From Bacteriovorax sp. (lineage in GTDB: Bacteria; Bdellovibrionota; Bacteriovoracia; Bacteriovoracales; Bacteriovoracaceae), in assembly GCA_014377485.1 (NCBI GenBank), contig JACMPM010000028.1, positions 1 through 35,069 of the forward strand: a stretch of 35,069 bases of DNA, given 5' to 3'. Shown here piece by piece: positions 537 to 14,399 of this stretch. Position 1 is the first letter of the stretch. Each line of letters begins with the position of its first letter. A program made the position numbers and the translations under genes. The notes under the pieces were generated by a model. It made no database searches, was not told where the DNA came from, and saw only the letters and a program-made list of their open reading frames with translations.

Positions 537-566
537 TTGACAGAGACGTTTTTATCAACTTAAATT
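537..566 (+). promoter_or_regulatory. Candidate sigma-70 promoter of the gliding operon
   Basis: A perfect TTGACA lies at 537-542. About 17-18 bases later there is a TTAAAT/TAAATT -10-like hexamer (560-566, 4 of 6 matches). It would start transcription near 573, giving a leader of about 105 bases before the ATG at 678. This is the only good -35 seen upstream of the operon. Assignment is by eye. Confidence 0.4.
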
Positions 567-677: not shown

Positions 678-1388
678 ATGAGTCATATTGCAGATTTTTT
701 TCATCGTGGTGGATTTTTCATGTGGCCGATTTTGGCATTTGGAATTTTAATAGCGGGCTTTATTGTTGAACGTTACGTCGCTCTTTATATTAAACATAAA
801 GTAGCACCAGTTGATTTCCGCAATCATATTTTAGGATTTATTGCTAAGGGTGATTTTAAATCTGCACTTGCTTATATTGATATGAGTGCAAAAGAGACGA
901 GCATCGGGAAAATTACAACTGTTGCTTGTAAGTTAAGAAGTGTTGGCGCTGGAGACGAAGCTCTTCAAGCCAGAATGGATGAACAATTATCAAAAGAAAT
1001 TTCCTCATACGACAAACGCACAGGATTCCTGTCGATGTTTGGTAACGTTTCAACTCTATTTGGATTACTAGGAACGGTTACAGGGATGATTTCATCATTT
1101 GCCGGCGCCGGTGCTGCAACTCCGGTGGAGAGAGCGGTTCTTCTTTCTAACGGTATTTCTGAAGCTCTGAACGCTACTGCCTTCGGATTACTTTGCGCGA
1201 TTCCAGCTCTTGTTGCTTATGCCATTTATCAAAATAGAACAGAACATATTGTGAATGGTTTAACTGAAGAAGCTTCAGGAATTTATCACGACTTTTTATT
1301 CTATACAGAAAATCATAAGAATGAAGAAATTGACGGATCAGTTTTAGGATTTGGAAAAGAAACAGTAGCTAACGTAAAGAGAAACTAA
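678..1388 (+). CDS. MotA/TolQ/ExbB-family proton channel protein (AglR-like)
   Basis: Inner-membrane subunit of a proton-driven energy-transducing complex. The 236 residues give a first membrane helix at about 15-35, a cytoplasmic loop, and two C-terminal helices. The family hallmark GLLGTVTGM occurs in the second helix (about 128-136), and the third helix is NATAFGLLCAIPALVAY. Length and topology match TolQ/ExbB/AglR. It is followed, with a 1-base TAATG overlap, by two TolR/ExbD genes, the same TolQ-TolR-TolR composition as AglR-AglQ-AglS, the gliding motor of Myxococcus. The remaining operon genes (TPR, PglI-type, barrel, VWA lipoprotein) support Agl over Tol or Exb: there is no TolA, TolB, Pal or TonB nearby. 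The ribosome-binding site is an unusually G-rich AAGGGGGG. First gene of the operon. Confidence 0.9.
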   Translation: MSHIADFFHRGGFFMWPILAFGILIAGFIVERYVALYIKHKVAPVDFRNHILGFIAKGDFKSALAYIDMSAKETSIGKITTVACKLRSVGAGDEALQARMDEQLSKEISSYDKRTGFLSMFGNVSTLFGLLGTVTGMISSFAGAGAATPVERAVLLSNGISEALNATAFGLLCAIPALVAYAIYQNRTEHIVNGLTEEASGIYHDFLFYTENHKNEEIDGSVLGFGKETVANVKRN

Positions 1389-1876
1389 TGAGCAGAAGAG
1401 GCGGTCACGGTTCGAAAAAAGAGCTGGAATTTGAACTTAATTTAACTTCATTTATTGATTTACTTTCTACCTGTACGTGCTTTTTGTTGATCTCTGCTGT
1501 TTGGGTTCAAATCGGAACAGTGGAAATTAAGCAAAGTCATGGAACAGAAGCAGCAGCAACTAAAAAAAATTCTTTTGACTTGGACCTGGTTTTCAAAAAT
1601 CCAGAAGAACTTCGTCTTAATTTAAAAAAAGATGGCAAGCAAGTTAAGTCGATTGAAGTGAAGTCAGATACAAACGCTGGCATGTTGATAAAGTTAAATG
1701 AAGCCATCGGTTCTCAAATTTATAGTAAAGACAGCAAAGCCAAAAAAATTGAAATAGCCGTAGCTACAGTCACTCCAAAAAGTACTGTAAATTACGGACA
1801 ACTTATTTCAGCTCTTGATGTGCTTAGAAAAAATCAGATCGTCAATATTGGCGTGCTGACGGCTAGGGGGCAGTAA
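1388..1876 (+). CDS. ExbD/TolR-family protein, first copy (AglQ/AglS-like)
   Basis: Single-pass inner-membrane motor subunit of 162 residues. A short basic cytoplasmic start is followed by a membrane helix at about 20-42 (NLTSFIDLLSTCTCFLLISA). Asp24 sits in that helix at the place of the proton-carrying Asp of ExbD/TolR. The periplasmic part (about 45-162) has the usual ExbD ending, with a helix (YGQLISALDVLRKNQIVNIG) resembling the family's 'v..vmd.l+.aGi..igl' tail. The start codon overlaps the previous stop (TAATG), implying translational coupling. It differs clearly from the next gene, so the two are not a recent duplication. In Myxococcus both AglQ and AglS are needed for gliding; whether this copy is Q or S cannot be decided by eye. 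Confidence 0.88.
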   Translation: MSRRGGHGSKKELEFELNLTSFIDLLSTCTCFLLISAVWVQIGTVEIKQSHGTEAAATKKNSFDLDLVFKNPEELRLNLKKDGKQVKSIEVKSDTNAGMLIKLNEAIGSQIYSKDSKAKKIEIAVATVTPKSTVNYGQLISALDVLRKNQIVNIGVLTARGQ

Positions 1877-2388
1877 TGAGACTCAATCAAAGTATGGTTG
1901 CGGCCAATCCTTTTGAAAAACACTTAATCAATAGAAGAAGAAAAAAAAATAAGGGATTCAGATCATCTGGATTTACCCTCATGTTGACTTCGATGGTTGA
2001 TATGTTCTCCATGCTCGTCATTTTCTTATTGCAAACATTTTCAAATACTCCAGAAATTTCGATCGTGAGAGGAATGGAGTTACCAAGATCTATTTCAGCA
2101 AGTGTCGTCAGAGAAGCTCCGGTTTTAGCGATCTCTAAAGATGGAAATCTTTATCTTGATCAAAAACTTGTTGGTCGTACTGCAGACATTTCTAGAAAGC
2201 CAGACGAGTTGTTAAATAAACTTAACTTCATTAAAAAAGGCTGGGTCTCTTCTCACACAACTGCTTTTTCAGGAGATATCAATCTTCAAGCAGACCGTGA
2301 AATTGAAAGCACGACTGTTTCAATGGTCATGGCGATTTTAACTTCATCACAATTTCAATCGATTCAATTGGCGGTTATTGGAAAATGA
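1876..2388 (+). CDS. ExbD/TolR-family protein, second copy (AglS/AglQ-like)
   Basis: Second TolR/ExbD-like motor subunit, 170 residues. The cytoplasmic start is very basic (RRRKKNK at about 20-26). The membrane helix is FTLMLTSMVDMFSMLVIFLL, with Asp42 in the position of the conserved proton-pathway Asp. The periplasmic domain includes the pattern 'ELPRSISASV...PVLAISKDGNLYLD', the typical ExbD 'vdLP.a......i.v.i..dG.iyl.' strand pattern. TAATG overlap with the gene before, ATGA overlap with the TPR gene after. It probably forms a heteromeric motor with the two genes upstream. Confidence 0.88.
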   Translation: MRLNQSMVAANPFEKHLINRRRKKNKGFRSSGFTLMLTSMVDMFSMLVIFLLQTFSNTPEISIVRGMELPRSISASVVREAPVLAISKDGNLYLDQKLVGRTADISRKPDELLNKLNFIKKGWVSSHTTAFSGDINLQADREIESTTVSMVMAILTSSQFQSIQLAVIGK

Positions 2389-5180
2389 ACATAAAGGCAT
2401 TAACTCTTACATTTTTGTTAATTCTCTCTACCCAGGCCAGCGCCAACGATTCCCAATACCTGATAAAGGAAATGGAAGCTCTGAGAGACTCGCTGGAAAT
2501 ACAAGATCCTGCCAGAGTTGACCTGACTCTGCGCTTAGCCGATCTTTATTTCGACGTTTCTATTCAAGAAGGACTTGGCTCAGACCTAGAAGTGCAAAAA
2601 AAGAATCGCCTTAAAGCTCTCGATTTATACAAAAGTTCTCTACTGGGATCTGATCACCTAAAAAAAGCGACTGGCTTAAATAAAATAAAAATTCAGTTTC
2701 AAATGGGCCGACTTCTCTCTCGTTTAAACGAAGGGAAAATGGCGGAGCCTTATTACCTTGAAATTTTAGCAGACAGTGAAGCTCCTAAAAAAATGATGGA
2801 GCAATCGGCATTAGCTTTAGCTGAATTTTATGAAGAAGAAACTAAGTTTGATAACGCTAGAAAATATTACGATAAAGCGATTGCCAATTGTGCTGATAGA
2901 AATTCCTGCAATTATGCTAACTACCGGTTAGCTTGGCTTTATTATAAAGACACAAAATTAGATGCAGCAATTGCGGCCATGGAGAAATCTCTTTGGACTG
3001 ACGTTGGAGTTATTCGCGAGAATTCTCTGACTGACCTTATTCTTTTTATTTCTAATAAAGAGACTGATGGCCAAAAAGAACTTGTGATGATTAAAAAAAT
3101 TGCGATCACCGGGAAAAGACCGGAATTGACTCGTTTGTTAGTAGAAGCTTTTTACGTTGCCGGTAACCGTTTTGCTGGTTCTAACTTATTAGCTGATCTC
3201 AATAAGAGTGACCCCAATCTTTATTACGAAGTAAGACTTCTGGAGGAATTTTATGGATTCCGTAAATGGGATAAAGTTGAAAACTACCTGAGCATCGTCG
3301 AAAAAAGAAAGCCGTCTGATATTCCACTAAAAGCGGAAGAGGCTAAAGAAATAGTAACCATTCTTCGAAGGTTTATTGTTCAGGTCGATGCTGAAATGCA
3401 AGTGGTGCCTGAATTAAAAGTTTTTTTAAAACGCTCAATTGATACTTACCTTAATCTCTATCCCAATGATGAGTTAAGAAAAAAAATGCAAGCTGGCTGG
3501 TTGGCAGTTGAAGACGATAAAATAAAAAAACTATCTAAACTCAATACCTGGATCAAAGAAGATATCTCTTTTAAAGTGGCTCCGGCTGAACTGAGAAAAT
3601 TAAGACAGACAAGGCTTGCTCTGGCTCAAGAACACAAGATCTCGGCATTGGTAATTGAAGACTCCCTGGCCATTGCTGAAATCCTGAAAGGAAGTCGTGA
3701 TGCAGATGAATTTCTCTACGTTGCAGCAAGAGAGCAATACGCTCAGAAAAAATATGAGCTAGCATTGTCGAACTTCCAGGTCGTTGTGACCAATGCAAAA
3801 TCTAGATCTGAAATTGTTAATTGGACTATTCTTTCTCAAAATTTAATTTTGGATATTTATAATACTCAAAAAAATTATGATGGAATCATCTCTCAAGCAG
3901 GTCTCTGGAAGGGGATGGTTGGGGAAAATGCAACGGCCGAAATTAAAAAAGAAAGTAAGTCGATTGAGCAAATTCTCGTTCAAGCTCAATTTGAAAAAGC
4001 CTTTTTAATGAAAGAGTCCATTGTGGCGATGGAGTATTTTTATAATTTCTGTCTCGCTGATCAGTATGTAGAAAAATCTTGTCCCAATGCTAAAGTCTTA
4101 ACTCTTAAATTCAAGGAACAGGACAAATTAGTTAAGATCCTTGAAAAAATGAAAGATGAAAATGGATTAGTCGTAGAGTATGAACTGATGGGGCGTTATG
4201 CAGATGCTGCTCGCTTGCGTGAAAAACTTGAACTTAAAACTAAACCAAGCATTGAATCCTTCTTAAAAGTGGCTTTTCTTTTTGAACTTGATCAACAAAA
4301 TAGTGAACGTGACCGAATTCTAAACTTAATGGTTGAATCGAGTAAACGTGAAAAGAATTTGCCATCTGAATTAGAAAAAAATGTTTTTGCTGCACTAGAC
4401 GTTGCTGGACTTCTTGATGAACGGGCCTTGGCAATGCCTTGGTCGATTAGCATGAAGTTAAAAATGGCAAGCCGTCTGCAAATTCAAAAGCCTTCGGTAG
4501 AGGCGCAAAAAATTCTTTTGAGTAGTAATACTGAGGGAGGTGGTCCCGCTTGGTCAAAAGCCGTTCTTAGTGTCTTGGAAGCTGAATATATTAAGACCAA
4601 TAGAATTAAATTCTACGGCTCTCGCAGTAAAATTTTATTTAAACAAAGAACAGCATCAATCGATAAGTTTGCAGCAGTCGCAAAACCAATGCTTGATGGT
4701 GCCGATCTTGAAACCAGAACTTATATTCTTCATATGCTGAAGATGACTTATAAAAATATGGCCAACGAAATACTAAATACGCCAATCCCTGAAGGATTAG
4801 ATGAAAAAACGCTAGCTTCAGTGACTGGACAAATTTCTACTATGGCGGATCCGTTTGACCGGGTTAATGAAGATTACGATAAACTTTTAACTGAGCAATT
4901 GGCGGCCATGACTGATGTGCCCCTAAAAGAGAACGTAACAAAAAATCTTGCAGGCACTGTTGTTAATTATGCCAGCTTCATTAAGTTAAATCTTGCTGAT
5001 CATAAAACTCTAGCGGCAATCGATTATAATACTGCCAATCAAATGAGAAAAAAATTACTAACTGATCCTGAAGATAAGGTTACGTTAGTTGGATTAAAAG
5101 ATTTTTATACAAAAAATGAAAATGCTCGTTTAGCTGCTTATTATGCAGGACGGGTTGATAATTTAAAACAGGTAGAATGA
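2385..5180 (+). CDS. Large exported TPR-repeat protein (GltD/AgmU-like)
   Basis: Periplasmic helical-repeat protein of 931 residues with a signal peptide of about 20 residues (LTLTFLLILSTQASA, cleavage before NDS). Helical-hairpin repeats of TPR type are seen at about 40-210, for example 'AEPYYLEILADSEAPKKMMEQ', 'FDNARKYYDKAIANCADRNS' and 'ANYRLAWLYYKDTKLDAAIA'. A further block near 450-500 contains 'EQYAQKKYELALSNFQVVV'. No enzyme motif is seen. In M. xanthus the large periplasmic TPR protein GltD (AgmU) is a core Glt component that links the motor to the outer-membrane parts. Position directly after the three motor genes and before the PglI-type gene supports an equivalent role; orthology itself is an inference. 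ATGA overlaps on both sides. Confidence 0.75.
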   Translation: MNIKALTLTFLLILSTQASANDSQYLIKEMEALRDSLEIQDPARVDLTLRLADLYFDVSIQEGLGSDLEVQKKNRLKALDLYKSSLLGSDHLKKATGLNKIKIQFQMGRLLSRLNEGKMAEPYYLEILADSEAPKKMMEQSALALAEFYEEETKFDNARKYYDKAIANCADRNSCNYANYRLAWLYYKDTKLDAAIAAMEKSLWTDVGVIRENSLTDLILFISNKETDGQKELVMIKKIAITGKRPELTRLLVEAFYVAGNRFAGSNLLADLNKSDPNLYYEVRLLEEFYGFRKWDKVENYLSIVEKRKPSDIPLKAEEAKEIVTILRRFIVQVDAEMQVVPELKVFLKRSIDTYLNLYPNDELRKKMQAGWLAVEDDKIKKLSKLNTWIKEDISFKVAPAELRKLRQTRLALAQEHKISALVIEDSLAIAEILKGSRDADEFLYVAAREQYAQKKYELALSNFQVVVTNAKSRSEIVNWTILSQNLILDIYNTQKNYDGIISQAGLWKGMVGENATAEIKKESKSIEQILVQAQFEKAFLMKESIVAMEYFYNFCLADQYVEKSCPNAKVLTLKFKEQDKLVKILEKMKDENGLVVEYELMGRYADAARLREKLELKTKPSIESFLKVAFLFELDQQNSERDRILNLMVESSKREKNLPSELEKNVFAALDVAGLLDERALAMPWSISMKLKMASRLQIQKPSVEAQKILLSSNTEGGGPAWSKAVLSVLEAEYIKTNRIKFYGSRSKILFKQRTASIDKFAAVAKPMLDGADLETRTYILHMLKMTYKNMANEILNTPIPEGLDEKTLASVTGQISTMADPFDRVNEDYDKLLTEQLAAMTDVPLKENVTKNLAGTVVNYASFIKLNLADHKTLAAIDYNTANQMRKKLLTDPEDKVTLVGLKDFYTKNENARLAAYYAGRVDNLKQVE

Positions 5181-5461
5181 GCATGAAGCACATGATTATC
5201 TTAGGGGCTTTCTTGTTGTCGTCATTGGCGTTTGCCGAAGAAATAAAAGACGAAACTAAAGAAGTCACTAAAGCGGCAAAAGTAAAATACAAAGAGGCCG
5301 GTCGAATTGATTTTGAATCCCTTTTAATTGAAGGTGAGAGAAAGAAACCAGAATTTTCGGTTGTTACTGGAAATATTGGTGAGAAAGATAACGGACTAAT
5401 GATTTATAGAACAGATTTTGGCGACATGATGGCCAATGACTTTGGCGAGGTAATCGAATGA
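5177..5461 (+). CDS. Small exported protein of the gliding operon (possible GltF counterpart)
   Basis: A 94-residue protein with a clear signal peptide (MKHMIILGAFLLSSLAFA, cleavage before EEIKDE). The mature part is about 74 residues, charged, with two short motifs: 'AGRIDFESLLIEGERKKPEF' and 'TDFGDMMANDFGEVIE'. No cysteine and no further membrane helix. 'IDFE...IEGE..+P' is a pattern remembered from myxobacterial and Bdellovibrio gliding loci, but no family can be assigned with certainty. ATGA overlaps with both neighbours imply coupled translation. GltF of Myxococcus is also a small exported protein between TPR and PglI-type genes, hence the suggestion. The first ATG (5177) or the second (5183) could be used; the signal peptide is unaffected. 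Confidence 0.65.
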   Translation: MSMKHMIILGAFLLSSLAFAEEIKDETKEVTKAAKVKYKEAGRIDFESLLIEGERKKPEFSVVTGNIGEKDNGLMIYRTDFGDMMANDFGEVIE

Positions 5462-6660
5462 TTGCGATACAATCTGAAAATGGTGAGTTAGTTAAAGTTT
5501 TGAAAAATGTAATGGAAGGCGAATATGGATTCCATCGATCATTCGGTATAATCAGCAAAGAGCAGGCTGGAAAACGCATCGTTACACGAAAACGTCAGTA
5601 TTACGATTACACTCATGATGATTGGTTATGCTCTTTTAAAATCCAAAAAGCTGATAAATTATTAAATATTTCTGCCTTATCTGATTGTGAAGCTATAGCT
5701 TCTGGTGCCGGCTGGAATTTAAAAACTCCCATAGGTGTTTTTAATATTTCGGAAGCACTTGGTGCTCAAATTTCCCCATTGCTTCAAGAAGGAAACACTG
5801 CTGGAAATAAATGGCTGAGTTATATTATTCCACTGACCATTATTTTATTTCTTATTTTTCCAATCATGTACTACACCCAAAAAAAACCAGTAACACTTGC
5901 AGTGGTTGAAGAAATTCTTGAACCCATAACTGTAAAAATAGAGAAAGTTGTTCACACAGTTAAAATAGAACAAACCTTTAATCCTAATCTGACTCCAACT
6001 CTCACTGGAAAAGCAGCCGTTTCAAGAAGAGCTGTTCAAAGAGACCTAGGATTTTTAGGAATGGTTGGTTCTAAAGAAATTACCAACGCAATTGGTGGAG
6101 TTCCTCAACACTTAAAAGTGGCCACTGCCGGCGCAGGCCCTGGTGGAACTGGCGGATCTGGTGGTGAAGTTTTAACTGGATTAGGAAAAGGATTAAGAAG
6201 AACAACTGTTGGTAACACTGGAGTTCAAGGTCTCGGCGGAATCGGAACAAAAGGTGGAGCTGGAGGCGGTCTCGGTGGTTACGGAAATACTTTAGTAGCG
6301 TCAGGCGAAGGAAAGGGAATTTCGGCCATTGCCGTTTCAAATAATGACATGGTTTTAGAAGGTGGTCTTAGTCGTTATGTTATTAATGCGACCATTGCAA
6401 AATACTTAAGTCAGGTTCGTCGTTGTTATGAAGCTGAACTTAAAAATCATCCGGAACTTCAGGGCTTGGTTGAAATGAGTTTTGAAATTAATCCAACTGG
6501 AAGATTAAATTTTTCTAAGGTTAACAAATCGACTCTAAGCAGTCCTCCAGTTGAATCATGCATTAGCGCAAAAATGATGGATTGGCAGTTTCCGCAACCA
6601 AAAGGTGGAGTCAACGTCAGTGTTAAATATCCATTTATGTTACGACCGGTAGGTGTTTAA
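5458..6660 (+). CDS. Trans-envelope gliding protein with AgmX/PglI C-terminal domain (GltG/GltJ-like)
   Basis: A 400-residue bitopic inner-membrane protein. Residues 1-117 form a cytoplasmic domain without a signal peptide. A single membrane helix lies at about 119-139 (WLSYIIPLTIILFLIFPIMY). A periplasmic stalk follows, with a Gly-rich stretch at about 224-290. The C-terminal domain (about 305-397) matches the TonB-like AgmX/PglI tail: 'AKYLSQVRRCYEAELKNHPE', 'GLVEMSFEINPTGRL', then a second Cys and W-x-F-P-x-P. Cys323 and Cys368 are the conserved pair and may form a disulfide. In Myxococcus GltG (PglI) and GltJ (AgmX) share this plan and connect cytoplasm, motor and outer membrane during gliding. 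No GYF or zinc-ribbon motif of AgmX is visible at the N-terminus, so GltG is the closer match. Confidence 0.88.
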   Translation: MIAIQSENGELVKVLKNVMEGEYGFHRSFGIISKEQAGKRIVTRKRQYYDYTHDDWLCSFKIQKADKLLNISALSDCEAIASGAGWNLKTPIGVFNISEALGAQISPLLQEGNTAGNKWLSYIIPLTIILFLIFPIMYYTQKKPVTLAVVEEILEPITVKIEKVVHTVKIEQTFNPNLTPTLTGKAAVSRRAVQRDLGFLGMVGSKEITNAIGGVPQHLKVATAGAGPGGTGGSGGEVLTGLGKGLRRTTVGNTGVQGLGGIGTKGGAGGGLGGYGNTLVASGEGKGISAIAVSNNDMVLEGGLSRYVINATIAKYLSQVRRCYEAELKNHPELQGLVEMSFEINPTGRLNFSKVNKSTLSSPPVESCISAKMMDWQFPQPKGGVNVSVKYPFMLRPVGV

Positions 6661-8675
6661 TGAAAAAGAATTTATTATTACTTCTTCTAGCGACAAGTTT
6701 ATTTTCTTGTAAGCAAAATCCTTATCCTGCAGTAGGAAATTTGAATGTCGAGCAAAGACAAGAACAGCGTAAGGTTGAACCACCACTCGCTATTTCGGTT
6801 GATGATTTGATCGACTATCAAGAAGGCCGCTACCGCGAATACCCGATTCGAGTTTCAGTTAAAGATCCGGGCACACCTATCGTGAGTATTGATAATCTTC
6901 CAGCAGGGGCTGAGTTCGATGCGAAAACTTTTATCTTAAAATGGCGACCTAGTTTTTTTGATGGAAATGATCCAGTTGATCCAACCATCAAAAGCCGAAT
7001 CTATCCTATAACTATTTGGCTCAGAAACAGCGCAGACCCAATAAGAGCTTTAAGAAGAACGATCAATCTTGTTGTGAACGATTCACCTCAGGGGATTGAT
7101 GTTGTTCCAAATAGAGTTACATCAGTTGATGAAGGACAGAAGTTTAGTAATACTTTCACTATCGCGAATGCTGATTTTCCTAAAGGACCTTATCGTATAA
7201 TCACTACGGGCATGCCTCCCAATACTGACCTGATAAAGGTGGATGAGAATACTTATAAATTAGAATTCACACCGGACTATTATCATGTGAATCGTCGCAC
7301 TGAAGGTTCTAGTAAAGTTTATAAAGGTAAAATTATTGTTGCAAATCCTGCCAACCAAATGGTGACTAAGGATTTAGACATTACTGTTAATGATAAAAGA
7401 CTCGAAGCTAAACTAGTGACTCCTCCTAACTTAACTCAAGGCTTAGACGTGAGCTTTCAGGTAGTGGGTTATGATTTAAATAAAGAGATGGCACCCGTAG
7501 TGACCATGTCTTCTGCAAAACCTGCGTTTGGAAAGTTTGTATTTTCAGAAATTAAAAATGAAGAAAGCAACTCGACAGTACTCAATATTTCATGGACTGA
7601 TATTCCACCTGTTCATAACGGTGAAGAGTTTACGTTAACTTTTAAATCTTGCGTTTTAGGCAACTGGAGTTCAATCGATAACTGCAAGGAATCAAAAACT
7701 ATTGTGAAAATTTTAGTTCATGATAGAAAATCTCCAACTATCGCTCGCACTGACTGGCCAGCGGGAGAAATGATTTATCTAAGTTTTGCTGAAACCGTAA
7801 CTAAAAAAATTGTAGTGAAAGATGCTGAAGATCCAACCTTAAAACCTAAGGTGGAAATTTTTCCTGAAGAAATTCGTAAATATGTTACCTGGAACGGAGA
7901 CAAACTTAGTATGAATTTTACTGAGCCAGGTGTTTTTCAATTTAATGTGAAAGCGACTTCGGATTATAGTGTTTCTTCTGCGGAGAGTTTTTTAATTGAA
8001 GTTTTTCCTAAAGACAGAAATAAAACACTATTCTTTGCGGATTCAACACGCGATCCGGAAGTTATTTTTTATAAAACGACTTTTAAGAATGTAGACATCA
8101 TGAATCCTGCGATTCAGGACATTAATGTTAGAAATCTCTCTGGAAGAGAAACGCTGGTTATTGGTACGAGCTCTTTAATGGACGTTGATGTTCAGCCAAT
8201 GATTTTAAAGGCCATTGATAAAATTAAAAATATCGTAGTGGCTTCTCCTTTGATAGATCAGCTTCCCGATAAATTTTTGGCGAAACTCAGAAATGACTAC
8301 GGCCTGATTACGATAGGTCGTTACAGTCAATTGCCTAACCTGCCTCCATTGGAGACAATGCAATTCGCTAAAACCAGTCAATTTGCGAATCCATTAAATC
8401 CGATTTTCTTAAAAAGAATTTCTTCATCTGAATCTCACGATCCAATGCTTTTTAACGGCGGACTTTATGAGCCCAATAAAATTTGCAAGGGGGTCCTGGG
8501 ACTTTCTCTTGATGGCACCAATCCTTACGTAATTGGAGTTGTTTGTAATCGTGAAAATGGGGGAAGAATTTCTCTCCTTGGGACTGAATGGGCCGATCTG
8601 AAAGTGGGCGCTGGCGACGAGCAAATTCCGGTTCAGTGGTTTAATACAATGATTAAAGATAAATTTTTCAGATAG
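6660..8675 (+). CDS. Large lipoprotein with Ig/cadherin-like domains in the gliding operon
   Basis: A 671-residue lipoprotein: signal peptide MKKNLLLLLLATSLFSC with Cys17 as the lipidation site. Two or more beta-rich cadherin/Ig-like repeats follow. One includes 'VSIDNLPAGAEFDAKTFILK' with W-x-P about 22 residues on; a later one includes 'GMPPNTDLIKVDENTYKLEF'. The 'LP.ga.fd..t..l.W.P' pattern is that of putative-Ig (He_PIG) modules. The C-terminal third (about 450-671) is mixed alpha/beta and resembles no family known to me. No enzyme motif. TAATG overlap with the PglI-type gene puts it in the same transcript. In Myxococcus, lipoproteins GltE and GltK sit in the outer-membrane platform; this could fill one of those roles. 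Confidence 0.75.
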   Translation: MKKNLLLLLLATSLFSCKQNPYPAVGNLNVEQRQEQRKVEPPLAISVDDLIDYQEGRYREYPIRVSVKDPGTPIVSIDNLPAGAEFDAKTFILKWRPSFFDGNDPVDPTIKSRIYPITIWLRNSADPIRALRRTINLVVNDSPQGIDVVPNRVTSVDEGQKFSNTFTIANADFPKGPYRIITTGMPPNTDLIKVDENTYKLEFTPDYYHVNRRTEGSSKVYKGKIIVANPANQMVTKDLDITVNDKRLEAKLVTPPNLTQGLDVSFQVVGYDLNKEMAPVVTMSSAKPAFGKFVFSEIKNEESNSTVLNISWTDIPPVHNGEEFTLTFKSCVLGNWSSIDNCKESKTIVKILVHDRKSPTIARTDWPAGEMIYLSFAETVTKKIVVKDAEDPTLKPKVEIFPEEIRKYVTWNGDKLSMNFTEPGVFQFNVKATSDYSVSSAESFLIEVFPKDRNKTLFFADSTRDPEVIFYKTTFKNVDIMNPAIQDINVRNLSGRETLVIGTSSLMDVDVQPMILKAIDKIKNIVVASPLIDQLPDKFLAKLRNDYGLITIGRYSQLPNLPPLETMQFAKTSQFANPLNPIFLKRISSSESHDPMLFNGGLYEPNKICKGVLGLSLDGTNPYVIGVVCNRENGGRISLLGTEWADLKVGAGDEQIPVQWFNTMIKDKFFR

Positions 8676-8689
8676 TTTTGAGGTTCATG

Positions 8690-9382
8690 ATGAAACAATT
8701 AATTATAGCGTTTTCACTTTTTAGCAGTTCAGTTTTAATGGCCCAGCAAAATTCTGAGTTAGAAAAAAAACTTGATGCGCTCAATATTCCCGACGATAAA
8801 GTAACTACTGTCGTGAGTGAAGATAAACTTTATATTGTAAACACCCGCTATTCGAGCTTAGTGAATCGCCATGAAGTGACTTTGCAAGGTGGAAATAATT
8901 TTACGGCCGACAGCCATCTCTCAACTCAGCAAGCGGCGTTTGCTTATCGTTATCACTTAAATAGCAACTGGTCGGGTGGTTTACGCTACACTCGTTATTC
9001 AAATAAACTGACAGATGCAGGACAACGATTATTCGTTGACAAAAAAATGCTTCCAGACACTGACTTTGCATTCAATGGCCAGGAAGCTTTTATAAATTAT
9101 AACACTATCTATGGAAAGCTTCGCTGGACTGAAGATACAGTTGTTTATTTTGATCAATATGTGGCGCTTGGTGGAGGTAGAATTAAACTCGCTTCAGGCA
9201 GTAAAAATCTAGCCTTCGCCGATCTGGGATTATCTTTTTGGATTGGAAACCATATGAGTACTCGTATTGGTTTTAAAAATGAATTTTATCAACAAACTCA
9301 GCTAAGCGGATCCCGAAATATTCATAATGGTGTAGGCTATTTTGAATTTGGTTATCTCTTTGGCAATGGTGACCGTGGATGA
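8690..9382 (+). CDS. Outer-membrane beta-barrel protein (GltA/GltB/GltH-type candidate)
   Basis: About 230 residues from the ATG at 8690. TGAGG at 8679-8683 gives proper spacing to this ATG and overlaps the possible TTG at 8678. Signal peptide MKQLIIAFSLFSSSVLMA. The mature part has alternating polar and hydrophobic strands with aromatic ends, e.g. 'YSSLVNRHEVTLQGG', 'AAFAYRYHLNSNWSGGLRYTR' and 'GLSFWIGNHMSTRIGFKNEF', ending in 'GVGYFEFGYLFGNGDRG'. This is the look of a small outer-membrane barrel of 8-10 strands, similar to the myxobacterial 'outer membrane beta-barrel domain' group. In Myxococcus three such barrels (GltA, GltB, GltH) form the outer-membrane platform; here only one is visible. 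ATGA overlap with the next gene. Confidence 0.78.
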   Translation: MKQLIIAFSLFSSSVLMAQQNSELEKKLDALNIPDDKVTTVVSEDKLYIVNTRYSSLVNRHEVTLQGGNNFTADSHLSTQQAAFAYRYHLNSNWSGGLRYTRYSNKLTDAGQRLFVDKKMLPDTDFAFNGQEAFINYNTIYGKLRWTEDTVVYFDQYVALGGGRIKLASGSKNLAFADLGLSFWIGNHMSTRIGFKNEFYQQTQLSGSRNIHNGVGYFEFGYLFGNGDRG

Positions 9383-10866
9383 AAAAAATTGTTGCAAGTT
9401 TTATAATTTTTTCAAGCCTTAACGTTTTGGCCGATAGTAGTTCACTGCAAAATCAAGCAGGGAGTGATATTGACCTAAGTTCTAAGATCTTAGTGCAGAA
9501 ACAACTCAACCTCGACAATCCATTTGTCATTCAGCTTTATTCTGCCTGGAAAGTTTTGGGACCTGTTGAATTGATATCCAATCAATGGATAGAACTCATC
9601 TTAGACAAACAATATGAAAAAGCACTTGCGCTTCTTCCAACTATAAAAGAGCCAAAACTTATTGCTATTAAACAAGCGAGTGAGCTCTATTTAATGTATC
9701 AAGCAGGTCATGTTCAACCTTTTCTAAACGGCTGGATAGAACTATCAAGCAGTACAAATTTTCTTCAAACAGAATTGGGTTTAGCTTTGGACCAAATCGT
9801 AGGAACAAAGAGTACTCAGCTCTTGATGGAAAATGGTTTTTATATAACTCCAGATATCAGTGCAAAACTTGCAAAAATTGCAGCCGTTCCTTCAAAATTT
9901 AATTACTCACTTCAGGCCTTCAATGCACTAAGAACTAGAGAAAATGCACTAGTATGGATTGGTAAATTAGACGAGAGCGATCCTCTGCGTATGCAATTGG
10001 CCCAGACTGCATTACTTCATTTCGCGAAGGCCGGAAAACTAGGTGCTTCGGGAAAAATTATAAAAGGCATTGTTGAACCCATTCTCAATAAATCAAGCAA
10101 CGAAGAAGAATTGTCTCTTTATTTTATGACTCTCGGTCGCTTGCTTTATCAGGCAGGTGCCATGAGTGAATCTAAAAAGTATTATGATTTGATTCCTCAG
10201 AGTTCAAGTTATTTTTTAAAGGCCAGAACTGAAGCTCTTTGGGCACACTTAAAAGAGAAAGACTACGCACGGACCAAGGGCGAACTTGCAACTCTTGAAT
10301 TAAGTATTTTTGACGATAAATTTCACCCTGAAGCTTATCTGGTAAGTGCTATGACCAACGTAATGTTGTGTCAGTTCAATGAATCAAGAGCAGCTATTAA
10401 TCGCTTTATAGAAGTGAATAAGAAATGGGCAAGAGAGATTGATAAAAATCTTAAAGATCCAAAAGCCTTGGCCATAACCAATAATTTCTTTATCGCAAAT
10501 CAAGAAAGAGCAAAAGCTTCTATCAGAAAAGAGAAGTTAATTTCAGAAACTAAAAAACAAGAATTATTAGCAAGCATTGATGAATCTATTAAACGGGAAA
10601 TTTCATCTCAATGGCAAAATAGAAAGACCATGCTGGAATCCGCTCTTTATAAAATGAAATTTGTAAAAATAGAATTGATCTCCCGTATGCGCGCAGTAGA
10701 GATGCATATGAAAATTGCAGGCTCTGATGAAGTCACAAGACAAAATGCAGCTCCCGCTCGCAAAAACCAAATGAGTTTTCCTCGTAAAGGTGCTTTATGG
10801 GGAGATGAACTTTTTCAAATGAGTGCGACTATCGTTAACAAATGTATCCGAGGTGAATTAAAATGA
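9379..10866 (+). CDS. Exported alpha-helical repeat protein (GltC-like candidate)
   Basis: A 495-residue periplasmic protein with signal peptide MKKIVASFIIFSSLNVLA. Nearly the whole mature sequence is predicted helical, with TPR-like pairs such as 'LTLGRLLYQAGAMSESKKYYD'-type helices near 255-275 and 'FNESRAAINRFIEVNKKWAR' near 330-350. A strongly charged coiled-coil-like stretch (about 365-420) follows. No catalytic motif. It lies between the barrel and the VWA lipoprotein with 4-base ATGA overlaps at both ends. GltC of Myxococcus is a periplasmic TPR protein that works with the GltA/GltB barrels, so context and fold agree with a GltC role; sequence orthology is not shown. Confidence 0.72.
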   Translation: MKKIVASFIIFSSLNVLADSSSLQNQAGSDIDLSSKILVQKQLNLDNPFVIQLYSAWKVLGPVELISNQWIELILDKQYEKALALLPTIKEPKLIAIKQASELYLMYQAGHVQPFLNGWIELSSSTNFLQTELGLALDQIVGTKSTQLLMENGFYITPDISAKLAKIAAVPSKFNYSLQAFNALRTRENALVWIGKLDESDPLRMQLAQTALLHFAKAGKLGASGKIIKGIVEPILNKSSNEEELSLYFMTLGRLLYQAGAMSESKKYYDLIPQSSSYFLKARTEALWAHLKEKDYARTKGELATLELSIFDDKFHPEAYLVSAMTNVMLCQFNESRAAINRFIEVNKKWAREIDKNLKDPKALAITNNFFIANQERAKASIRKEKLISETKKQELLASIDESIKREISSQWQNRKTMLESALYKMKFVKIELISRMRAVEMHMKIAGSDEVTRQNAAPARKNQMSFPRKGALWGDELFQMSATIVNKCIRGELK

Positions 10867-11903
10867 AATACTTAGTTTTGATTATACTGCTGTTTACAAT
10901 ATCTTGTTCAAAAGCAACCAAATATGCCTACTACGAAAATATAGCTCCGATCGAAGTTGATAGACGTATTTATCCTCTGAGTTTACTTGAAAGTGATAAG
11001 GATATTGATGTTTTATTTGTGATTGATAATTCTGCAAGTATGCAAGGTATTCATCAGAACATTGTTCGAAATTCCAAAATATTTTTAGAGCAATTCGCAA
11101 AACAGCCTTACATCAATTGGAAAATCGGCGTAGTTTCTACAGATAGGCATGATGATCCCTATCTCGGTTTTGCCACACCATTTGACTATAAATTAATTGA
11201 TGCCCGCGATCCAACTTCGTTTGACCGCACAGTAGCTCAATTTCAGAATGCTGTCTCTGCTTTGGGTGTTGATGGCGATTCTTCAGAATATGAATTTTAT
11301 AATGTGAAGAGAGTAGTCGATTTATACAATGGTCAAAATGGAAAGCCATCTTTCTTGCGAGCAAATTCCCATTTAGTGGTGATCATGATTACTGATGCAA
11401 AAGAGCAGAGCATGTTAGATTTTGGTGCAGCTTATGATGTTCCGACTTTTGTGAAGACCATGGGCGGATATATACCAGCGAATAAGATCCTGCGTTTTTA
11501 CGGTGCTCTTAGCCGCATAGATCTAAAGGATTGCAATAATCCAGAAGACTATGAACCCTATGTTGGTAGCCCATTTGAAGCTATTATAAATCAGACAAAA
11601 GGTTTTAATATTTCGGCATGTATCAGCGACTTTGGAACTGATCTTGCGAAGATTGGAAAAGACATCGCTTCTATTGTTGGTCTTCCAAGTTTACTTTTAA
11701 AACAGCGGCCAGTAGCGAGCACTTTGAAAGTTTATTATAAAAACAAACTTCTTTCTCCGGGACGTAAAGAAGACGGCGGAATATGGTTTTATGAAGAAAG
11801 TACTAATACCATCAATTTTTATACAATGGATTTCGTTGAAGATGCTCGCAATGACTATTTTAAAATAGAGTTCGATATCGATGACGGAAATAACCGAAGC
11901 TAG
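10863..11903 (+). CDS. VWA-domain lipoprotein, candidate gliding adhesin (CglB-like)
   Basis: A 346-residue lipoprotein with signal MKYLVLIILLFTISC (Cys15). A von Willebrand A fold begins at about 48: 'DIDVLFVIDNSASMQG' contains the MIDAS metal-binding motif D-x-S-x-S at Asp55, Ser57 and Ser59. 'HLVVIMITDAKEQS' supplies the later MIDAS Asp. Cysteines in 'IDLKDCNNPEDYEP' and 'GFNISACISDFG' could form a disulfide. In Myxococcus CglB is an outer-membrane lipoprotein with an integrin-like VWA domain that acts as the substrate adhesin of the Agl-Glt machine. Being the last gene of an Agl-Glt type operon makes a CglB-like role attractive. VWA lipoproteins are common, so this is inference. It is followed by a strong terminator. 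Confidence 0.78.
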   Translation: MKYLVLIILLFTISCSKATKYAYYENIAPIEVDRRIYPLSLLESDKDIDVLFVIDNSASMQGIHQNIVRNSKIFLEQFAKQPYINWKIGVVSTDRHDDPYLGFATPFDYKLIDARDPTSFDRTVAQFQNAVSALGVDGDSSEYEFYNVKRVVDLYNGQNGKPSFLRANSHLVVIMITDAKEQSMLDFGAAYDVPTFVKTMGGYIPANKILRFYGALSRIDLKDCNNPEDYEPYVGSPFEAIINQTKGFNISACISDFGTDLAKIGKDIASIVGLPSLLLKQRPVASTLKVYYKNKLLSPGRKEDGGIWFYEESTNTINFYTMDFVEDARNDYFKIEFDIDDGNNRS

Positions 11904-11916
11904 GTTCCATCAGACT

Positions 11917-11943
11917 TCAGCCTCTTAATGATTAAGAGGCTGA
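11917..11943. terminator. Bidirectional terminator between gliding operon and S41 protease
   Basis: TCAGCCTCTTAAT and its exact reverse complement are separated by one base, forming a perfect 13-bp inverted repeat (the hairpin tip will open to 3-5 nt). It lies in the 51-base gap between two convergent genes. T-rich sequence follows on the plus side (GTTGAATTTAGTT) and the arrangement can serve both strands. Confidence 0.85.
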
Positions 11944-11954
11944 GTTGAATTTAG

Positions 11955-14399
11955 TTAAAGATTTTTCACCGGACTAACTGAAATATTTTTTATTGTAATC
12001 CCTTTATCAGTTTTCCCTTCATCACTCTCAAATACAAACCTTATCTCAACGGCTTTCCCATTGAACTGAGTTAAGTCAACTTTATAGCTAGTCATTGGAA
12101 TATCACCACTGAGTTTATCCACCAAGACAACTTCTGTACCGTTAAAGACAGCAATAACTTTCATCGTATCAAACGATGCTTCTGTTTTAACGCTGGCATC
12201 AAATTTCAATTCATAATTTGCATTTGGCATTGTGATAAAAAGAGAAGCTTCTGCATAAGTGAGGTTTGCGTACTGAGATCCATCTCCTAGAGATAAAGAG
12301 TCATCACTAATATTCCAACCGTTCTTTTTGAGTGTGTTGTGAGTATAAAGAGCTAGATCTCGATCATCTTTTAAATTGATATTTATATTCTGATTAAGTC
12401 CTATGATTTTGCTTGCGGGAATTACACGGTAGTTTAAAATTTTTCTCCAAACTCTTACGCCTGCCTTAGCTCCAAGAATCTCAAGTCTGCCTTGACCAAC
12501 TTTATTAGTAGCAACGGACTTTGGGAGACGAACACTTAAATTCGTACCGATTGATGGTATAGATCTTCTCTCAAGATTTTTCCCATCTTTTTTAAAATCT
12601 AGCGAAGTAGTATCATTCCAACTTGCAGAGAATTGAGCTTTTGAATTTATAATAAAATCGTGTCGTTCTTCGTTCGTAAGATAAATATTCGAAGTGTATT
12701 TTGGCGACTCTTCATTTAAAAATTTCTGAAGAACCAGGAGTTGATCATTTGTTGCATTAAATAGATCACTCATGCTTGGAGGTGATAAACGATCAGCCTT
12801 AACTCCTGCATCTTCAATATGGACATCTTTATTTATGCCTCCTCTAAACGACTCACGAAATGCAAAACTAATATTCTGGCCATGATAGAGTCGTTTAAAA
12901 GGACCAGTGTCCTTGTCTTCAAAGCCTCCTAGCATTTCATTTAAACTGTAGACATTCGCACCGCCACCACCAGTGCTCAGGTCTTCACCAAAAATTGTTC
13001 CGACTTTAAAATCCTGAACGAGAGAGGCGAAAGTTTCACAAGCTGAATAGCATGCAGAGTCCACGAAAACAGTTACAGGTTTGAAATAGACTTGTCCCAG
13101 GTCATTTATATGTTCAAAAGAATCGATTGGTAATTGTTCGGTATAGGGAAGTCCCAGACGATCAGCTTCGTTCAACGCTATTGTAAAAGGATCAAGGCTA
13201 TCTACATTGTTCATGTAAAATAAATTAGCCGGACTATTTTTTAAATAAAATGTTGAAGGTACTATTTCGCGCGGACTGATTAACTGAATAAGTCTCTCTG
13301 CTAAAGGGAGTTGACCGCCAGGATTTCCTCGTAAATCAAACATCAATCCGTCGGTATTTTTAAGTTCATTCCTAAGTAGATTTTTAATCGTTGTGACAAC
13401 TTCACCAGTTGTAAAAACATCTGGAGTAAAACTTGTCAGCTGAATATAGCCGAAATTTCCATAGATACTTTTATTTATTTGCCAATAAAGACTAGGTTCG
13501 TTGGTGTGTCCCTGAGTTGTTTCGCCACGAGTTTTACTTGGTTTTTGTATCCTTTTTGTTTTGGGTTTTAACTTGAGCGATTTTTGCTTGAGGCTAAAAG
13601 GATTATTGGTAATTAGATTATTCTGAACAGGAGTGTGCTCTTCAGCGATACAACTCCAGTTAGTAAGAGCAATCCACGGCAACTCTGTTTTATATTTTAC
13701 GCCTTGGCCATTAAGGAATTCTAACTTGATGCTGTCTTTTTCAGGCAAAAATTCGAGGTTGTGCTGAAAATATTTTAGCGCTTTAATACTATTTCTTCTG
13801 CTGGCACCAGGATTTGCTCCAAGAGACCTTGGCATTTTTGCATTAATGGCGTCTGTGATCGAGAGGCCATCGTAACTTGTAATGATGTCTCCAACTTTTA
13901 CATTAAAAGGCTTTGGTAACAATTTTAACATTTGTTCATCATCACCAACTTCTGATACTGCAATCACAAGTTTTCCATCAGCAGCACGCACTTCTTTCAA
14001 ATTAAATGGCAAAAAAGTTTCATAACAAGAAAATGGTCTTGGCAGGTAGTAAAGAGAGTGAAGATCGCGAAGACGAATAAATATATCACTAAGTTGTTTG
14101 TGAAAATCTAGATCGGTGATGGTATCAATTTGTTTTTCAATGATATTTAAAGCAGGAACTGGATTTGCATCTGGTCCAAAATCTTTGAGTTTTACTTCCA
14201 TATGAACATAAATTTCTTCTAGTATTATTCGGACCTGACCTAAAACAACTTTCTTTTGATCCACACTGTAGTGAGGAAGCTGTATATTTGATCTTGCATT
14301 TGAAAGCAAACTATAAACAGGTGGACCCGCGACTGCTGAGAGTGAAGTGAGCACGGCCAAAGTGATCAGCACAGTTTTGGTAAACCTCAAAGTTAGCAT
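11955..14399 (-). CDS. Exported S41-family (tricorn/IRBP-like) serine protease
   Basis: An 814-residue exported peptidase with signal peptide (TVLITLAVLTSLSAVA). 'RDLHSLYYLP' (about 111-120) carries the S41-type His114. A PDZ-like segment 'VKVGDIITSYDGLSITDAI' lies at 168-186. The S41 core has 'GLMFDLRGNPGGQLPLAERL' (350-369) and 'VDSACYSACETFASLVQDF' (446-464), where Ser452 in S-A-C-E takes the place of the nucleophile in S-A-S-E. No Lys is seen at the CtpA general-base position (the stretch is STGGGG), so a tricorn-type Ser-His arrangement is more likely than Ser-Lys. A basic low-complexity linker lies at about 270-297, and beta-rich C-terminal domains (about 590-814) may bind substrate. 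GGAG precedes the ATG. Monocistronic. Probable role: periplasmic or surface protein breakdown, useful to a predator; that is inference. Confidence 0.82.
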   Translation of the reverse strand: MLTLRFTKTVLITLAVLTSLSAVAGPPVYSLLSNARSNIQLPHYSVDQKKVVLGQVRIILEEIYVHMEVKLKDFGPDANPVPALNIIEKQIDTITDLDFHKQLSDIFIRLRDLHSLYYLPRPFSCYETFLPFNLKEVRAADGKLVIAVSEVGDDEQMLKLLPKPFNVKVGDIITSYDGLSITDAINAKMPRSLGANPGASRRNSIKALKYFQHNLEFLPEKDSIKLEFLNGQGVKYKTELPWIALTNWSCIAEEHTPVQNNLITNNPFSLKQKSLKLKPKTKRIQKPSKTRGETTQGHTNEPSLYWQINKSIYGNFGYIQLTSFTPDVFTTGEVVTTIKNLLRNELKNTDGLMFDLRGNPGGQLPLAERLIQLISPREIVPSTFYLKNSPANLFYMNNVDSLDPFTIALNEADRLGLPYTEQLPIDSFEHINDLGQVYFKPVTVFVDSACYSACETFASLVQDFKVGTIFGEDLSTGGGGANVYSLNEMLGGFEDKDTGPFKRLYHGQNISFAFRESFRGGINKDVHIEDAGVKADRLSPPSMSDLFNATNDQLLVLQKFLNEESPKYTSNIYLTNEERHDFIINSKAQFSASWNDTTSLDFKKDGKNLERRSIPSIGTNLSVRLPKSVATNKVGQGRLEILGAKAGVRVWRKILNYRVIPASKIIGLNQNININLKDDRDLALYTHNTLKKNGWNISDDSLSLGDGSQYANLTYAEASLFITMPNANYELKFDASVKTEASFDTMKVIAVFNGTEVVLVDKLSGDIPMTSYKVDLTQFNGKAVEIRFVFESDEGKTDKGITIKNISVSPVKNL

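Follow-up and report, generated by a model that had tools for sequence, protein, structure and literature searches.

Positions 678 to 11,903 of the 35,069-nucleotide stretch of Bacteriovorax sp. DNA analysed here (the window; contig C113 of a 3.95-Mb draft genome in 147 contigs) hold ten open reading frames, all on the plus strand, for proteins of 236, 162, 170, 931, 94, 400, 671, 234, 495 and 346 residues in that order. Together they probably encode a trans-envelope machine of the Agl–Glt type, the type that serves gliding in Myxococcus xanthus. At eight of the nine junctions neighbouring genes share 1 or 4 bases; at the other one (8675/8678) a 2-base gap precedes the TTG start of the eighth gene, for which an alternative ATG lies at 8687. 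A terminator-like hairpin of 13 pairs with a weak T tract (11,916–11,944, plus strand) stands 3′ of the last gene. An earlier note on this DNA had described a ten-gene operon with overlapping junctions and a terminator-like end, and the overlaps and the hairpin bear this out. The evidence at the other end is weak: a promoter-like site, TTGACA-18-TAAATT (537–566, plus strand), lies 112 bases upstream of the first gene, and such sites are not enriched in the region (24 found, 33 expected from shuffles). The arrangement is not a chance one, because 13 other Bdellovibrionota genomes share the whole gene order and Bdellovibrio bacteriovorus HD100 has it twice.

The first three genes encode a motor. 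An AglR-like subunit of the MotA/TolQ/ExbB family (678–1388, 236 residues; MotA_ExbB, E = 2e-25) is followed by two subunits of the TolR/ExbD family, an AglQ-like one (1388–1876, 162 residues; ExbD, 2e-12) and an AglS-like one (1876–2388, 170 residues; ExbD, 4e-14), both named by conserved position. The domain matches and the AglR tree described below identify this as the two-TolR motor of the Agl clade.

Relatives of GltD, GltF, GltG and GltC come from four of the remaining genes. The GltD-like protein (2385–5180, 931 residues) is an exported TPR protein (1e-6); an iterated profile puts it in one family with the proteins at the GltD position in HD100 and with the GltD of the Myxococcus Nfs set, and it has been placed by a tree, as has the GltC-like protein. 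The small exported GltF-like protein (5177–5461, 94 residues) matches NCBIfam CglF (GltF) at 7e-7, below the cut-off; its family profile also matches the Myxococcus GltF adjoining gltG. The GltG-like transducer (5458–6660, 400 residues) matches GltG at 1e-35, and its AgmX/PglI tail scores 99 bits (cut-off 40); the whole genome holds three AgmX-type tails, all GltG-like. Finally, an exported helical-repeat protein (9379–10,866, 495 residues) matches NCBIfam GltC at 5e-15, again below the cut-off, and a PDB sequence search with it gave no matches. How close are these proteins to their Myxococcus namesakes? Comparison with the Glt and Agl families, which the earlier note had advised, gave a divided answer: the AgmX/PglI tail and the barrel described below pass their cut-offs, whereas GltC (55 bits, cut-off 450), GltF (29 against 90) and GltG (123 against 650) fall far short of the equivalog level. 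On these scores, the three are relatives rather than equivalogs of the Myxococcus proteins.

In the predicted model GltG has a folded N-terminal domain, a single membrane helix, a disordered Gly-rich linker and a C-terminal domain. The top structural matches of the C-terminal domain in a fold search were the C-terminal domains of TonB and TolA, weakly (E ~0.01), and the GltG-family profile matches TonB in the PDB, also weakly. For the N-terminal domain the fold search returned no credible match. The predicted architecture fits that of a TonB-like force transducer.

Three genes would supply the outer-membrane parts. The first encodes a lipoprotein (6660–8675, 671 residues; the Ig-rod lipoprotein) with an invariant lipobox cysteine, C17. 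An AlphaFold model (mean predicted local distance difference test score, pLDDT, 87) and a fold search show four Ig/cadherin-like domains in tandem, followed by an alpha/beta domain at the C-terminus. Its homologues were found only in loci of branch II, as defined below; in one of these genomes (G024) the gene lies in two frames (L075:10510-12561), possibly through a frameshift or a sequencing error. The second is an outer-membrane beta-barrel of the GltA/GltB type (8678–9382, 234 residues; TIGR04565, 62.9 bits against 60), whose profile matches the Myxococcus barrels adjoining gltC.

The last gene encodes a VWA lipoprotein with a MIDAS motif, the candidate adhesin (10,863–11,903, 346 residues; VWA, 1e-4; D55-x-S57-x-S59, E142, D178). 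The lipobox cysteine C15 and D55, S57, S59, E142 and D178 are invariant in 24 homologues, as would be expected of a MIDAS site. The family profile matches the VWA genes of Bd2368–2377, Bd0412–0420 and Bd1473–1483 of HD100, and also an HD100 MIDAS protein at 827 kb that passes the curated model of Bd0875-type MIDAS adhesins; Bd1483, Bd0875 and the window protein are thus members of a single family. No CglB model appeared among its NCBIfam matches, its VWA region weakly resembling the CglD and Bdellovibrio MIDAS models, and a PDB sequence search with it found no matches. A 404-residue VWA lipoprotein found in Myxococcus is one on which no name could be put. Elsewhere the VWA gene is tandemly amplified, with four copies in genome G103 (L087:877-5280) and two in G084 (L084:13407-15594), a pattern that an adhesin might well show if it were diversifying. 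Taken together, the profile searches uphold the earlier reading of the domains (MotA/TolQ/ExbB, two TolR/ExbD, TPR, AgmX/PglI tail, barrel and VWA).

Could such a set be a Tol–Pal or Exb/TonB-type envelope or uptake system? A TolQ/TolR-family motor and a TonB-like tail are what such a system would contain. To place the motor we relied on AglR trees, one of 75 rows that included long branches and a rebuild of 68 rows from which these had been removed; both gave the same groups. In the rebuilt tree the two-TolR Agl motors, the window's among them, split from the Tol/Exb-type motors at 100/100. Moreover, the window AglR scores 75 bits to TolQ (cut-off 221) and 61 to ExbB (cut-off 206); TolA, TolB, Pal and a TonB-dependent receptor are not linked to the operon, and the genome has a separate TolQ/TolR pair, of Tol type, on contig C145. 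On tree position and model scores we rejected a Tol–Pal or Exb function, which we regard as scarcely credible.

The Agl motors themselves form three branches, among which the trees settle no branching order. Branch I (98/96; 80/96 in the rebuild) unites the M1-type AglR of Myxococcus, Hyalangium and Sorangium with Bd0828–0838 of HD100. Branch II (99/96; 98/97 in the rebuild) holds the window-type AglR with Bd2377 and Bd0420 of HD100, while branch III contains the Myxococcus M2 motor, Bd1481 and others. Among the Agl branches, the window motor is therefore not the one closest to the M1 AglR of Myxococcus. Branch II reappears in the GltC tree (100/98) and in a quick tree of GltD (97 by the Shimodaira–Hasegawa-like approximate likelihood ratio test, SH-aLRT). 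The idea that the window operon is the closest relative of the Myxococcus gliding set was accordingly rejected; Bd0828–0838 holds that position.

To what, then, does the operon correspond, if not to the Myxococcus genes? HD100 carries the window gene order twice, at 2,272–2,283 kb and at 388–399 kb, which we take to be Bd2368–2377 and Bd0412–0420, respectively; the small GltF-like gene of the second locus is detected weakly. In the genome that we take to be HD100, the loci with AgmX tails stand at the places expected of the published operons. In all three operons the order is AglR-TolR-TolR-GltD-GltF-GltG-lipoprotein-barrel-GltC-VWA, with a lipoprotein at the Ig-rod position and the VWA lipoprotein at the end, and all three fall in the same branch of the AglR, GltC and GltD trees. 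By these trees, the window operon is co-orthologous to both HD100 operons. Even so, the proteins are only 24–41% identical, the lipoproteins of HD100 have just 386 and 356 residues against 671, and the N-terminus of HD100 GltG aligns poorly with that of the window.

Synteny was also compared across Bdellovibrionota, as the earlier note had advised. All ten genes stand in the window order at 13 of the 15 other window-type loci examined; of the remaining two, one (G112) is cut by a contig end and the other (G158) lacks a VWA match. The 13 include G024, with its split lipoprotein gene, and G084 and G103, with their additional VWA genes. The nearest relative, G043, shows 71–83% identity across all ten genes, and therefore the block evolves as a unit. 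The operon is present in three of seven same-genus genomes and in 20 of 57 sampled genomes of the family, two of the 20 by a short, weak match; it is therefore accessory. The earlier note had set this packaging as a unit against the separate loci of M. xanthus. The packaging is not novel: the two HD100 operons, with the same gene order, have appeared in the literature since 2010 under the name of tonB/agl or gliding operons (PMC2797640, PMC12546842), and the window holds a well-preserved relative of a known Bdellovibrio system. Although a 2026 review regards the gliding machinery of Bdellovibrionota as still unidentified (PMC13104615), four candidate operons are known in HD100.

What might such a machine do? 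We consider it likely, though well short of certain, that the operon encodes a branch-II Agl–Glt-type machine, co-orthologous to Bd2368–2377 and Bd0412–0420, and that this machine drives a MIDAS adhesin to bring about slow gliding or prey-associated movement. This reading follows from the gene order shared with HD100 and the 13 genomes and from the three trees, together with the two-TolR motor, the TonB/TolA-like tail of GltG and the MIDAS and lipobox residues invariant in the 24 homologues. The machine is probably proton-driven. The AglR/AglQ/AglS-like motor would turn proton flow into motion, and GltG, held in the inner membrane, would use its TonB-like tail and Gly-rich linker to pass the force across the periplasm. 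The force would then be relayed by two solenoid proteins, GltD and GltC, and by the small GltF to the outer membrane, where the barrel and the Ig-rod lipoprotein would form a station within the same complex. There the VWA lipoprotein, presumably exposed at the cell surface, would make the contact, and its movement against the cell body would result in slow gliding or in movement against prey remnants.

A role in movement is suggested by several lines of evidence. The window's genome encodes MglA (69% identity), the gliding switch of Myxococcus. In HD100, which uses gliding in prey exit (PMC9140294), the Bd2368–2377 proteins rise at prey exit and those of Bd0411–0421 at 45–60 min of predation (PMC12546842). 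Transcripts of Bd0412–0420 are up at 30 minutes, and the other three clusters are up in host-independent growth (PMC2797640). In the paralogous clusters, an AglS insertion in Bd0838 (of Bd0828–0838) blocks prey attachment, and insertions in Bd1481 (AglR) and Bd1483 (VWA) reduce biofilm predation (PMC2277423).

Comparison with the systems of Myxococcus and with Bd0828–0838 shows both likenesses and differences. The M. xanthus Agl–Glt/Nfs machinery resembles the window in its AglRQS-type motor, its GltC, GltD, GltF and GltG relatives and its GltA/B-type barrel, and the Agl–Glt system includes a VWA adhesin, CglB. Its Agl–Glt genes are scattered over several loci, whereas those of the window lie in one operon; it also differs in having an FHA domain on GltG, GltE, two barrels and GltH–K. 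Bd0828–0838, the HD100 counterpart of the Myxococcus gliding genes according to Luciano et al., is like the window in its two-TolR motor, GltD, GltF, GltG tail, GltC and barrel. Unlike the window, it has GltE and an FHA-bearing GltG, groups with Myxococcus AglR and has another gene order; no VWA or Ig-rod lipoprotein was found in the cluster.

A number of these differences, and some further facts, weigh against the reading we prefer. No GltE-like gene is found among the ten, although Luciano et al. count GltE among their seven core genes. The window GltG has no Pfam FHA match, whereas Myxococcus GltG, NfsG and the GltG of Bd0828–0838 all carry the domain. Here there is a single barrel, against two in each of the G2 and Nfs sets of Myxococcus. 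The operon is absent from four of the seven same-genus genomes and is therefore not generally required. Gliding has not been seen in the window organism, the papers searched yielded no mutant in a branch-II operon, and the abundance of the Bd2368–2377 proteins in the exit phase is a correlation.

Nor are GltH, GltI, GltJ and GltK in the window operon, which has no gene left over for them. With these, GltE, the FHA domain and a second barrel missing, the machine is not complete by the standard of Myxococcus, and the 'complete-looking' of the earlier note is an overstatement. The same note had suggested that it may show the core of the ancestral apparatus. We rejected an ancestral minimal machine and conclude that the operon represents a derived branch, because the published core gene GltE has been lost here and the Ig-rod lipoprotein is an extra found in branch II alone. 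What stood of the original interpretation is an Agl/Glt-type trans-envelope machine, given the Agl-clade two-TolR motor, the TonB-like transducer, the GltC-, GltD- and GltF-like parts, the single barrel and the MIDAS lipoprotein; it was right in kind and overstated.

That the set, unlike the gliding branch, has lost GltE and FHA, and that same-genus genomes manage without it, would also suit a related machine for moving or anchoring a surface polymer or other cargo rather than the whole cell. Glt-like machines do specialise in this manner, Nfs serving spore coat assembly in Myxococcus (PMC3858216). But the tail gene of the operon encodes a conserved, sometimes tandemly amplified MIDAS/VWA lipoprotein, which points to adhesion, and a polysaccharide export gene is not among the ten; we therefore think this explanation unlikely, though worth keeping in view. 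Alternatively, the motor might pull the adhesin as a force-coupled receptor for prey or surfaces, in attachment, entry or exit, with no gliding at all. Productive prey invasion requires Bd0875 (PMC11003981), which is related to the VWA protein, and both the loss of attachment on AglS insertion and the rise of the Bd2368–2377 proteins at exit would agree with such a receptor. Attachment and gliding are inseparable in the HD100 data, however, and genomes that are likely Halobacteriovorax, predators, lack the window operon. To this possibility we give little credence.

The compact block, kept as one outside Bdellovibrionaceae, reveals which parts always travel together: motor, GltD, GltF, GltG, GltC, one barrel, Ig-rod lipoprotein and MIDAS adhesin. 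The Ig-rod lipoprotein and the VWA protein are therefore the leading candidates for the outer station in machines of this type. The operon is also a block of ten genes that lends itself to experiments by deletion or transfer.

Is this the only Glt-like set in the genome? Two others are present, both on Tol/Exb-like single-TolR motors and one with its own VWA gene. The latter, on contig C83 (L013:7736-17526, minus strand), is a tight operon in the order VWA-barrel-GltC-GltF-like-GltD-GltE-TolQ-TolR-GltG. The third set lies in two places: barrel-GltC-GltD-GltE-GltF, without a motor, on C6 (L015:10158-16424), and a matching TolQ-TolR-GltG, without other Glt genes, on C71 (L012:9743-12004). GltE-like genes thus occur in both the C83 and C6 sets. 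The C83 and C71 motors score 127–132 bits to TolQ, against 75 for the window AglR, and fall with the Tol/Exb-type motors in the AglR tree. The earlier note would have been refuted by a complete second set elsewhere, with the window operon serving Tol–Pal or Exb functions. A second set with a VWA gene does exist, on C83; yet the operon itself is not of Tol–Pal or Exb type, by its place on the Agl side and its scores below the cut-offs.

Like the window, the C83 set has VWA, barrel, GltC, GltF-like, GltD and GltG genes in one operon. It differs in its GltE and its single-TolR motor from the Tol/Exb side, and its GltC is nearer the Myxococcus GltC model (94 bits against 55). Two same-genus genomes, G005 and G023, keep a motor of the C83/C71 kind without the window operon. 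A motor swap at C83 is possible. Tentatively, and with slightly more doubt than conviction, we suggest that different motors can be fitted to Glt-type envelope modules: to the window's an Agl two-TolR motor, and to that of C83, with VWA and GltE, a single-TolR motor from the Tol/Exb side. If so, gliding-type machines would be adhesin-tipped envelope modules with exchangeable motors, and the genus would offer a natural experiment on which motor is enough for movement.

Two minor observations concern neighbouring and unrelated genes. The next gene after the hairpin (11,955–14,399, minus strand) is convergent with the operon and, from the motif DLRGNPGG read by eye, resembles an S41-type C-terminal processing peptidase; it is not kept beside the operon in G043. 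On contig C83 of the same genome, a pair of genes with a MotA_ExbB match (L016:4136-5787) resembles flagellar MotA/MotB, from which we judge that the organism probably also swims.

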